A DNA stretch of 64,000 nt. It comes from Cystobasidiopsis lactophilus (taxonomy: Eukaryota; Basidiomycota; Agaricostilbomycetes; Agaricostilbales; Chionosphaeraceae). The notes below the pieces were generated by a model, which was not told the origin of the DNA, ran no database searches, and saw only the letters and a program-made list of their open reading frames with translations. The position numbers and the translations under genes are program-made. Numbering within the stretch: position 1 is the first letter of the stretch; each line of letters starts with the position of its first letter. Location: positions 843,434-907,433 of the forward strand of contig BCIO01000004.1 in NCBI GenBank assembly GCA_001599975.1, written 5' to 3'. Of the stretch, positions 1,409 through 4,947 are shown piece after piece.

Positions 1409-2416
1409 ATGCGCTGGAAGATATTACTTTTGGCGGTGCTGCCTATCCTCAAGCCGGCCAGCGCGTCCATTGGCGACAACTCGCAGGCCTACCAGCTCTG
1501 CACTTCCAAGTGCTTCCAGCAGCCCTGCAAGCCTCTGCCGCTCTCGCTTCGGTGGTCTGTTTGGTCGTGCCAAGATGACTGCAAGTACCAGTGCCAGCAA
1601 TTTCTCACCGACCTCACCGAGGACCCTGCGCTCGCGGGTCAATTGGGCGACCTCCCTCCTTTCCCAGTTCAGTTCCACGGCAAATGGCCTTTTAAGCGAG
1701 TCTTCGGCATTCAAGAGTTCTTCTCCGTCCTGTTCTCCCTCTTCAACTTCCTCGCCCATTTTCGATGGACGCGCACCATCTTCCACGACCTGCCTTCCAA
1801 CTTCCCGGCCAGCCTGCAGCTCGGGATGCGGGCGTACAACCTGGCCAGCTTGAACCTGTGGATTTGGTCCATGGTTTTCCACACTAGGGACTTTGGGTGG
1901 ACAGAGAAGATGGACTACTTCTCCGCTGCGCTCGCCGTGCTGGTCTCCCTCTACCTCGCTGTCGTTCGACTGTCCGGCATCTACACCACAAGCCCAGCTC
2001 ACACCCTTCTCCGTCGCTTTCTGGCGATAATGCTGGCCCTGATATTCTACGCGCATGTGTCGTACTTGACATTCTGGACATTCGACTACTCGTACAACAT
2101 GCTCTTTAACATTTCGCTCGCCCTGCTCCACAACTCTCTCTGGTACTGCTGGACGGTGCTCCAGCTCCTTCGCCCAGTCTCATCCAGAAGACGGCCAAGG
2201 CACCTTTGGTGGCCGGCTTCCATCTTGACGCTGTTGAGCTGTTTGATGGCATTGGAGCTGTTCGACTTCCCGCCCTGGAAGAGGCTGGTGGATGCACATG
2301 CGCTGTGGCATTTGTGTACGGTGCCGGTCATTGGTCTGTGGTACAGGTTCTACACCGAGGATGCGAGGTGGTTGTCCAAGCAGTTGGCGGATGGCGAGTT
2401 GAAGTTGAAGAGGTGA
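1409..2416 (+). CDS. PER1: GPI-glycan-linked lipid remodelling phospholipase PER1
   Basis: Single-exon gene of 335 codons. It starts MRWKILLLAVLPILKPASAS, a signal peptide. A lumenal cysteine-rich region follows (CTSKCFQQPC and CQDDCKYQCQQF), then FHGKWPF, and a membrane part with about seven helices. WSMVFHTRD, FYAHVSYLTFWTFDY and DAHALWHLCTVPVI carry the histidines and aspartates of the CREST superfamily. In yeast Per1 and animal PGAP3 act in the ER or Golgi, removing the sn-2 acyl chain so that GPI anchors can be remodelled. Length and topology match the family. The ATG at 1409 is chosen because the same frame upstream opens only with a GTG. The stop lies 10 bases before the first unit of the intron ladder. 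Confidence 0.93.
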   Translation: MRWKILLLAVLPILKPASASIGDNSQAYQLCTSKCFQQPCKPLPLSLRWSVWSCQDDCKYQCQQFLTDLTEDPALAGQLGDLPPFPVQFHGKWPFKRVFGIQEFFSVLFSLFNFLAHFRWTRTIFHDLPSNFPASLQLGMRAYNLASLNLWIWSMVFHTRDFGWTEKMDYFSAALAVLVSLYLAVVRLSGIYTTSPAHTLLRRFLAIMLALIFYAHVSYLTFWTFDYSYNMLFNISLALLHNSLWYCWTVLQLLRPVSSRRRPRHLWWPASILTLLSCLMALELFDFPPWKRLVDAHALWHLCTVPVIGLWYRFYTEDARWLSKQLADGELKLKR

Positions 2417-2426
2417 CCTATCCTCG

Positions 2427-4174
2427 GTGCGTGCTTGGCCTCCCCTAAGATTAGCTGTTGTTCATATTTTCTTTCGTGGTTTTGCATGCGCAGACCTTTG
2501 GGGACTTCAGGCCAAGGATGCCAAGTGGTGCTCGCTGATCATCAACTTCCCCTTTCATGCCCCGGCGTCCAGCACTGTGTCGATTGTCAAAGTGTTCAAA
2601 AGGAAACAACAAAATCCAATCATTGAAGCCTTTGCCGTCGATGGTGGACTCCTGCCTCGACTTGGTGAAGTCACCACCGTAGGCTCAAGTGGTGATCCCA
2701 CTTCAACCCCAGAAAAGTGCGTGTTGACCTTACCGAAGGTCAGCTTTCTTGCTGATCTGGGAAGTCCCCCTCTCGCACAGTCCAAAGAGAGCTTCTTTAT
2801 AAGCCCGAATCCAACTTGTCTGCGTAGCAAGGTGCGCGCGAGCTCCCCCGAAGATTGGCTTCTCAGTCCAATCAATCTTCGTATTTCGTGTATTCGGGCC
2901 ACAGTCCTCCGTGAGGTTTTGGGCCAAGATTTAGAGATGGCCAAGGGGCCGCCGAGACTCCTTCTGCTGAGCAAGGTGGGTGCTGGCACCCCCAAGATTA
3001 GCTGTTGCTCATCTTAGATGAGTTCCTGAGCCCACAGCTATAGCGTACGCCTCCACGACAAAGCCAACTGGGGAATGTGCTCCCCGCGGCTCACTTTTTT
3101 GCCTTTTGAAGGTGCGTTGAAGCGACCCGATAGATCAGCACTTGCTTAATCTTCAGCTATACTTTCGCCGCACAGTCATTTTCGAACCTTTCAAACGGAA
3201 CCTTGCTGGGCGTCTCAAAGTTGCTTCGGTCGACCCGTCTTCAAAGAAGGTGCGGGCGCAGCTCACTCAAGACTAGCTTTGCATGCCCTTCTAATGCATA
3301 GCCAATAGCTGGACTGTCACAACTCAGAACCCAGAGAGAAGACCGAGCCCTGAGACCTGGCTTGTCAGAAGCAAGGTGCGTGGTCCCTTGAGGGTTAGCT
3401 TTTTTCGCTCATCTTTTTGCATATGGTGGATGCACAGTTGTCGGACTGTCTTTTTGGCAAAGCGCCCAGAGAAGGAGAAAAGGTGCTTTGCTTCTCGCGT
3501 CTAGAAAAAGGTGCGGTCTCGGTGACTCCTCCAGATAAGCTGCCCACCTGATCTGTTTTTGAATCTCGGACCACACAGTCACCATTTGGATCCCACTTCC
3601 GGAGCGTCCTTGAGAAAGGGAAGGAGTGTATCACCAAAGGCAGCTACAGCAAGGTGCGCTGCCGACCCCACTTTAAGATTAGCTTCTTTCGCTCATCTAA
3701 GTCGGTTGCCTTCCTTGCACAGACATCATTGGGTCTACTCAGCGCTCGACATCTCGGGCCAAGATGTGAATTCGCTATGCGGGCCCGGTGAAGTGGCAGG
3801 TGAGCGGTCGGCTCATCTTGAGACCAGCTTGTCGTGCTCATCTTTCCTTGTTTGTTTGCACCCAGTCACCCAATGGGGTTCAGGACCACACCTTTTTATG
3901 GCGAGCATCGATGATCGACCTGGGGGAATGGGCCCTCTCTTCTTTCCTGGATATCGCTGCTCGCGTCTGCAATACTACTGCACGCTCTCAATTTCACTTC
4001 ACGGTTGCCTCTTTCAAGTCTCTCTCTCGCCCCTTTTCAAAACAAGCCTTTCGCGCGTCTTCCTCCTGGGCCTCAAAGCTGTGCACTCGCACATTTCCAC
4101 CGACCTCACCCAAGCCGTCAGCAGGCGAGCTCTCCGCGTCAAGGGCAACAGAAGACGGGTCAAGCAACCCGTAA
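2427..4174 (+). other. intron-dense unrecognised locus: ten related intron-like units
   Basis: Ten segments of 62-78 bases each begin GTGCG or a close variant and end CACAG or CAG: 2427-2493, 2717-2780, 2832-2904, 2976-3037, 3112-3175, 3250-3327, 3376-3437, 3511-3578, 3654-3722, 3800-3865. About 20 bases in, most share a core close to AAGATTAGCTT followed by GCTCATCT, which could hold a branch site. Between them lie exon-sized pieces of 48-77 bases, often ending AGCAAG. Individual pieces are open and protein-like, for example VIFEPFKRNLAGRLKV at 3176-3249 and SPFGSHFRSVLEKGKE at 3579-3653, and the last runs open to 4174. Some joints close only with alternative donors (3483 instead of 3511). 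I find no convincing start codon and recognise no product. It may be a fast-evolving gene, a spliced noncoding RNA or a decayed repeat gene. Confidence 0.5.
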
Positions 4175-4207
4175 TTTCCTGCAATCAATCTCGTATTGCA
4201 CTTCCCA

Positions 4208-4947
4208 TCAGCCGCCCTTCTCCAAATCTGGATTGGCCTTCAGCACCCTGCCCCTCTCGCCCGCTAGCACCTTCTGCACCCTCTCCAGCTTCTGCGCTGC
4301 CCCCGCTGCCCCTGGGTTGGTGGAGGAGCAATCTGAGGGCGTGTAAGGTTCTTTGATGAGGATGTCGTCCAGCACCAAGATGGAGGTGGATTGCCATTCT
4401 GCCGAGTAGGCTGTTCGTCCGCGGCCGTCAAAGTTGATACATCAAGTGTATCAGGGAGAATCAAGGACGCACTTTTGGATAGCGCATCAAACACGGCCTG
4501 GGCGAGCGCACTGACTCCCCTGCCTAACCTCTTGGTCCGCGCCTTGTCCAGCTCCAGCCCTTTGGCCTCGTTGACCTTCAACCTCTCCAACGACACCGCC
4601 GTCACTTTAGCCAGCTTGGCCAGTGCCTCTGCGCTCGGCATCGCGGTGACTTCGACGCTCGCGATGGACGTCGTCTTGATCACCCTGTAGTCCCTGCCCC
4701 GTTGCCCAGGCGACTCCAACACCAACAGCGACAAGGAAGGGTCGTAAGCCCACAGAGCGCCATTGACAGCTGCTTGCGAGTCCAAAGTGAGCGAGAGCGA
4801 GGCGCCGATGAGGTCGGAGAAGTCCTCCTGGCTCGGCGGCCCAGGCGACGGGGCGGACGGAGGCACCGGGGTCGTCACTGTTGACGAGCGCCGCGAGTTG
4901 GGCAGGGAAACGATGGGCGCCGCTTTCTTGGCGGACGACGTCGCCAT
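4208..4947 (-). CDS. LSM12: LSM12-like protein
   Basis: Two exons (4947-4473 and 4410-4208) separated by a 62-base intron give 225 residues. The N-terminal third is low-complexity (Ser/Pro). An Sm-like fold follows (GASLSLTLDSQAAVNGALWA, then LLVLESPG), and then the anticodon-binding-like AD domain. The intron joint restores the family motif FDALSKT followed by ILVLDDILIKEPY, which the unspliced frame would lose. The C-terminus is charged and helical. Lsm12 proteins bind Pbp1/ataxin-2 and associate with ribosomes and stress granules. The gene is transcribed divergently from 5487, with about 540 bases between. Confidence 0.88.

Follow-up and report, generated by a model that had tools for sequence, protein, structure and literature searches.

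A Ladder of Ten Intron-Like Segments with a Shared Core behind a Per1-Family Gene in a Fungal Genome

The Locus and Its Neighbors

The window described here is a stretch of 64,000 nt (C4:843434–907433) from a genome of 22.1 Mb in eight contigs, and the analysis is confined to this one genome and to its sequence. The genome is eukaryotic, with U6 and U2 snRNA genes, short GT-AG introns, and members of the Piwi and Mago families; its compactness and the size of its introns point to a fungus. Close to the left end of the window, on the forward strand, lies a ladder of ten predicted GT-AG intron-like segments of 62–78 nt that spans positions 2427–3865.

The ladder is bordered on its left by a Per1-family gene and on its right by a converging gene with an LSM12-like arrangement. 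Its first donor (2427) is only 10 nt downstream of the Per1 stop codon (2416), so the exon upstream of the ladder must start inside the Per1 gene. The identity of this gene directly in front of the ladder is new relative to a preliminary description of the same DNA. In the converging gene, the AD domain scores 23.7 bits in Pfam, barely above the cut-off of 23.4, and the LSM12_LSM domain scores 11.4 bits, which is below its cut-off. The features are as follows:

1409..2416, forward strand: Per1-family gene (gene finder; Pfam PF04080, E = 8.1e-89), predicted to be intronless
2427..2493, forward strand: intron 1, 67 nt, core at 2446–2470
2494..2716, forward strand: exon 1, 223 nt, noncoding, within a 290-nt step of about two ladder steps
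2717..2780, forward strand: intron 2, 64 nt, core at 2735–2759
2781..3799, forward strand: the range holding exons 2–9, of 51, 71, 74, 74, 48, 73, 75 and 77 nt, dissimilar and noncoding
2832..2904, forward strand: intron 3, 73 nt, core at 2850–2874
2976..3037, forward strand: intron 4, 62 nt, core at 2993–3017
3112..3175, forward strand: intron 5, 64 nt, core at 3130–3154, the weakest copy
3250..3327, forward strand: intron 6, 78 nt, core at 3268–3292, acceptor (3327) uncertain
3376..3437, forward strand: intron 7, 62 nt, core at 3390–3414
3511..3578, forward strand: intron 8, 68 nt, core at 3531–3555
3654..3722, forward strand: intron 9, 69 nt, core at 3674–3698
3800..3865, forward strand: intron 10, 66 nt, core at 3819–3843, the only one without predicted end pairing
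4208..4947, reverse strand: converging gene with an LSM12-like arrangement (gene finder and Pfam), the other border of the ladder

Ends and Spacing of the Introns

The preliminary description had reported ten segments of 62–78 bases, each running from GTGCG to CACAG and repeating every 110–225 bases, with exon pieces that often end in AGCAAG and start with TC. The ten segments are indeed present at these lengths, while the rest needs some adjustment. Eight of the ten donors are GTGCG (the remaining two are GTGGG and GTGAG) and seven acceptors are CACAG (the others end in GCGCAG, ACTCAG and ACCCAG). The first donor-to-donor step is 290 nt and the later ones are 115–146 nt. AGCAAG precedes four of the ten donors, and TC follows five of the ten acceptors.

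For comparison, a set of 89 ordinary introns was assembled from 26 predicted genes in 124 kb, made up of the window and six 10-kb stretches. These introns are themselves predictions of a small, purpose-written gene finder, retained from 347 after screening by length, by donor and acceptor, and for overlap between genes. Since the set was selected by its donor and acceptor letters, comparisons of donors are conditional on the filter. The commonest ends of the ordinary introns are also GTGCG (29/89) and CACAG (20/89), so these ends alone mean little, and branch-site-like words of the CTNAY type are found in ordinary introns as well. The donor, branch-site-like word and acceptor of the ladder introns thus resemble those of the other spliceosomal introns of the genome, and we infer from the sequence that all ten are spliced. 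The flanks differ more: AG precedes the donor in 8/10 ladder introns versus 18/89 ordinary ones, and TC follows the acceptor in the five ladder cases versus 1/89. Noncoding exons may be free to carry good splice contexts, which could account for the AG.

The Shared Core

The ten introns share a core of about 25 nt that consists of AAGATTAGCTT, a short loop and GCTCATCT, including a branch-site-like CTNAT, and that lies at a near-fixed distance from the donor. The best common 11-mer in the ladder reaches 15.8 bits per site, compared with 10.18 ± 0.42 bits (maximum 11.53) when ten ordinary introns are drawn at random 200 times over, and 9.78–11.23 bits in seven sets of ten successive ordinary introns on the + strand of the window. 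Its distance from the donor has a spread of 2.4 nt in the ladder, compared with a mean of 11.0 nt and a minimum of 3.8 nt in the random sets. In intron 5, this run picked a neighboring 11-mer and not the aligned one.

A covariance model built from the ten cores has no hits in the window beyond these ten at E < 0.1; the fair test is scoring with each copy left out in turn. By this measure, eight of the ten rank first among 90 when set against the ordinary introns, and introns 3 and 5 rank second and third. The second half of the core is weak by itself and ranks first for only four introns. Both the shared motif and its position are far outside chance relative to the 89 predicted ordinary introns, which bears out the earlier claims that most of the introns have a common core at the same distance from the donor and that this core was not seen in any other intron of the window.

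The first core half AAGATTAGC (window positions 2447–2455, and also in introns 4 and 9) is identical to a same-sense stretch of a U6 snRNA gene (L027). The identity is odd for a word adjacent to a branch site, and is probably due to chance, given how many RNAs are available for comparison. Pairing of the consensus core with the U2 or U6 snRNA of the genome was considered and rejected, as the longest Watson–Crick runs are only 6 and 5 nt, respectively. The U6 gene L027 (C5:1917364) has a companion of equal score, L028 (C5:1924492), about 7 kb away in the opposite orientation, with flanks that are near-identical at least in part. Two weaker U6 matches are found on C1.

Likeness outside the Core

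Parts of the ladder were aligned pairwise and compared with dinucleotide shuffles. Clear likeness among the units is restricted to the 25-nt core. The spacer between donor and core is no more alike than the shuffles (p = 0.475), and the stretch behind the core is marginally more alike than they are (p = 0.045). Whole exons are at shuffle level (p = 0.205), as are exon interiors (p = 0.185), with a marginal likeness in the last 16 exon bases (p = 0.025). The confinement of likeness to the core is strongly supported.

The preliminary description had suggested that the locus grew by copying of an intron-bearing unit or by a small burst of intron insertion. Alignment of the ten units upholds the likeness in the core, but neither the exons nor the spacer share in it. 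Both recent copying and an introner burst are weakened by the shuffle-level exons and spacer, and by the failure of four patterns, each of which detects one to four of the ten copies, and one BLAST search to find another ladder in 22.1 Mb. With likeness limited to the core and no second ladder found, it is unlikely that the units were duplicated in tandem recently or that they form a typical introner burst. In a tandem exon–intron duplication, neighboring exons would resemble each other, unlike those of the ladder, where the last 16 bases are the exception noted above. As the source of the even spacing, tandem duplication long ago is still a fair guess, although it leaves the core-only likeness unexplained.

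Exons

Exons 2–9 are strikingly even in length. Their coefficient of variation is 0.16, compared with 0.95 in 47 ordinary internal exons, and among 20,000 draws of eight ordinary exons, a fraction of 0.0002 was equally even, which makes the evenness a strong result. The first step of 290 nt is twice 145, and exon 1 perhaps contains a lost or decayed unit; no remnant of the core was found in 2494–2716 by the covariance model or by left-out scoring.

The exons do not look coding. When spliced, they contain stops in every frame, and their lengths vary modulo 3. The best open frame per exon has a codon score near zero (−2.3 to +3.7), compared with an average of 3.9 (sd 3.2) for 1088 coding pieces of 75 nt, and six conceptual exon pieces gave zero Pfam matches at E up to 1. 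The preliminary description, which recognized no protein and found that several phases fail to close, had suggested a possible spliced noncoding RNA, and the stops, codon scores and Pfam results all agree with a noncoding locus. Structured exons were rejected as well: in nine exons, folding z lies between −1.9 and +1.8.

Predicted Folding of the Introns

The introns of the ladder are predicted to fold more stably than ordinary ones, with nominal p values that come from many tests tried. The mean folding z against mononucleotide shuffles is −1.33 in the ladder and −0.12 in ordinary introns (p = 0.003); against dinucleotide shuffles, the ladder mean is −1.6. The first five bases are predicted to pair with the end of the intron with a mean probability of 0.81, versus 0.33 in ordinary introns (p = 0.0008), and 0.89 versus 0.47 when only GTGCG introns are compared. 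Individually, the probability is 0.73–1.0 in nine of the ten and 0.01 in intron 10. This predicted end pairing is the second point that goes beyond the preliminary description.

When ends are swapped among the ladder introns, pairing by counted cells is poorer than between an intron's own ends (p = 0.0115), an effect that ordinary introns do not show (p = 0.40). By duplex energy, the comparison gives p = 0.058 for all ten introns and 0.0275 for nine, versus 0.116 for ordinary introns. Pairing of the whole arms gives p = 0.045 (ten) and 0.057 (nine), and that of their middles p = 0.17. The covariation of the intron ends is therefore modest, and the closing stem is perhaps kept as structure.

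Other measures separate the two sets less. The share of paired bases is 0.57 versus 0.53 (p = 0.19), a single-hairpin fold is predicted for 9/10 ladder introns versus 53/89 ordinary ones (p = 0.085), and the run of paired terminal bases gives p = 0.059. Among sliding 70-nt windows, those beginning at a donor average only z = −0.42 and are hardly stabler than the others, and some windows with z < −2 fall outside introns.

The two halves of the core are near-complementary, with 82.5% of cells paired versus at most 45.8% when one half is slid along the other. They show no covariation, however: the observed paired share is attained by 81 of 500 shuffles, and a second test gives p = 0.49. Near complements that do not covary suggest that the core is kept as sequence. 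Overall, the structural evidence is modest.

Searches Elsewhere in the Genome and among Known RNAs

Four patterns, each of which detects one to four of the ten copies, found no second ladder in the 22.1 Mb. AAGATTAGCTT has eight occurrences in the genome, one of them in the ladder (four for the reversed control), and the strict pair of core halves has two, both in the ladder (control 0). The looser pair is found at nine places, four in the ladder and five outside (control 0), and the donor with the first core half at seven, four in the ladder and three outside (control 1). BLAST of the 1439-nt locus against the genome returned only the locus itself. Had the genome contained another ladder with copies like these, the patterns would probably have revealed it; single diverged copies of the core may be present elsewhere, as the patterns detect at most four of the ten in the ladder.

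A scan for donor–core–acceptor arrangements covered the retrieved loci, a biased sample in which many were chosen for matching the core. It gave 27 arrangements scoring at least 11: the ten of the ladder (16.2–30.6), two on its opposite strand, which arise from the near-symmetry of the core, and 15 elsewhere. Highest among the outside arrangements is L018 at 18.0, which exceeds the weakest copy in the ladder; it has a GTGAG donor with the next acceptor at 80 nt. L024 (score 15.3) is intron-shaped from GTGCG to CACAG, with 66 nt and −27.5 kcal/mol, and stands alone. L038 (score 13.0) is a predicted intron carrying only the first core half. None of these three intron-shaped places is part of a row. 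The L024 arrangement is a palindrome with a ladder-like core at about C4:2072421–2072486 on the reverse strand (around 4422–4487 in L043), opposite the start of a predicted gene.

Known RNA families were also considered. No Rfam family matches the ladder at the gathering score, and a lax search gave two chance-level matches (E = 1.6 and 4.1). Box C/D snoRNAs in introns or exons were rejected, as no C-like word followed by CTGA at 45–110 nt occurs in 2301–4300 on either strand; this search covered the D box CTGA alone, and H/ACA RNAs were judged through Rfam. A tRNA array was likewise dismissed, as the search found none. For a conserved word of nuclear 18S rRNA genes, the genome has no exact match; the rDNA may be missing from the assembly, or the word may have been skipped as very common.

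Comparison with Known Systems

NORAD-type long noncoding RNAs consist of repeated units in which only short words are alike, and these words are in the mature RNA. The ladder is similar in its repeated units with only short words in common, but its words are in introns, at a fixed distance from the splice sites.

Mirtrons (PMC9757828) are taken here in their animal form. The ladder introns resemble them in being short and in a predicted fold that places the splice sites at the base of the hairpin and leaves a two-base AG overhang. Argonaute genes are present in this genome; Piwi-domain matches number 11, of which 10 are above the cut-off, at four places (C4:140606–141525, C4:543248–543964, C2:622712–623650 and C2:716120–717147), which points to several Argonaute-like genes. 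Unlike mirtrons, the ladder introns have arms predicted to pair only in part, with middles that fall short of significance, and follow one another as a series of ten that has a single apical core in common.

The fungal snR78–snR72 clusters and others have snoRNAs that are intronic in Basidiomycota (PMC3596301). The ladder resembles the fungal host genes of that source in its succession of introns within a transcript that looks noncoding and has small exons, which in the host genes are poorly conserved. However, its introns of 62–78 nt leave little room for a snoRNA, and with no box C/D pair or Rfam match found, it lacks the defining feature of such hosts.

Introners and fungal introner-like elements are mutually alike, near-symmetrical and stabler than ordinary introns (PMC9860276, PMC4457414, PMC8469720), and the ladder introns share these traits. 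Introners also have copies in many unrelated genes, with a likeness that comes close to both splice sites. The ladder introns differ in being confined, as far as the searches reach, to one noncoding locus, and in a likeness that ends well short of the splice sites.

No description of such an intron ladder was found among the listed titles and abstract openings of the open-licence literature with the terms tried.

Interpretation

Our tentative preference, which falls somewhat short of an even chance, is for a noncoding transcript resembling a host gene, whose structured introns are the constrained part. Host genes follow the same principle, with constraint on the introns of a transcript whose exons are free. 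The reading draws on a set of computed features: the shared core, the restriction of likeness to it, noncoding-looking exons, even spacing and predicted end pairing. The stabler folding of the introns, the unstructured exons and the good splice contexts, with AG before eight of the ten donors, also speak for it. Beyond these, we infer the splicing, the start of the transcript, a binding factor and any released intron RNA.

The spliced transcript would either form the 3' tail on Per1 mRNA or be an RNA with its own start within the Per1 gene. Selection would keep its ten introns and not its exons. Each intron would be excised as a hairpin of about 65 nt, with a closing stem formed between its ends, arms peculiar to it, and an apical core shared by all ten. 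This core would hold the branch site and be kept as sequence, presumably because it is read by one RNA-binding factor. The array probably originated by an old tandem duplication of a unit of about 140 nt, after which the exons would have drifted. The locus would then yield its introns as products, in the manner of a snoRNA host gene. Against a product, the position of the core on the branch site fits splice control at least equally well, and there is neither an Rfam family nor a box C/D pair, in addition to the modest structural support.

With the core lying over the branch site and the ladder following the Per1 stop, joint control of splicing is the main rival. Here, one core-binding factor would slow or permit the removal of all ten introns from the 3' tail of Per1, and spliced forms with exon-junction marks past the stop would decay, tuning the output of Per1. 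The fixed position of the core between donor and branch site, the start of the ladder 10 nt past the stop and the Mago (exon-junction) gene of the genome all agree with this, as does the report (PMC5006051) that intron retention in Cryptococcus neoformans is commoner in UTR introns than in ORF introns. Ten near-equal introns, however, exceed what such a switch needs, and the predicted end pairing and even exons are left unexplained; on balance, this explanation is somewhat unlikely.

A bolder reading makes the locus a polycistron whose ten introns encode hairpin RNAs of a class not yet described. These would share the apical core and one bound factor, carry unit-specific arms that could act as guides or mirtron-like small RNAs, and be released by splicing from noncoding RNA joined to that of a housekeeping gene. 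We regard this reading as unlikely.

It is also unlikely that the ladder is an old local introner-like burst, or an old tandem duplication, that is now functionless, with the core as a remnant. The even spacing would follow, and TC after five acceptors and AG before eight donors resemble a shared context. The near-symmetry of the introns matches that described for fungal introner-like elements (PMC8469720), which soon become indistinguishable from ordinary introns (PMC4457414). But drift should blur the core and its surroundings equally, whereas only the surroundings are at shuffle level, and the genome-wide patterns and BLAST found no family elsewhere.

It is very improbable that the locus encodes a protein with low codon bias in numerous small exons left unjoined by the gene models. 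In several exons the frame ending in AAG is open, and an unspliced open frame of 202 codons covers 2409–3017; against this reading are the stops, codon scores, empty Pfam searches and varying exon lengths described above.

Significance

In this ladder, ten adjoining units within a single transcript combine exons that look free with introns that look constrained. The locus thereby makes it testable whether excised fungal introns serve as a product or carry a common control element. If the introns are a mere decayed burst, they would still be a clear record of how an intron ladder arises inside one transcript.
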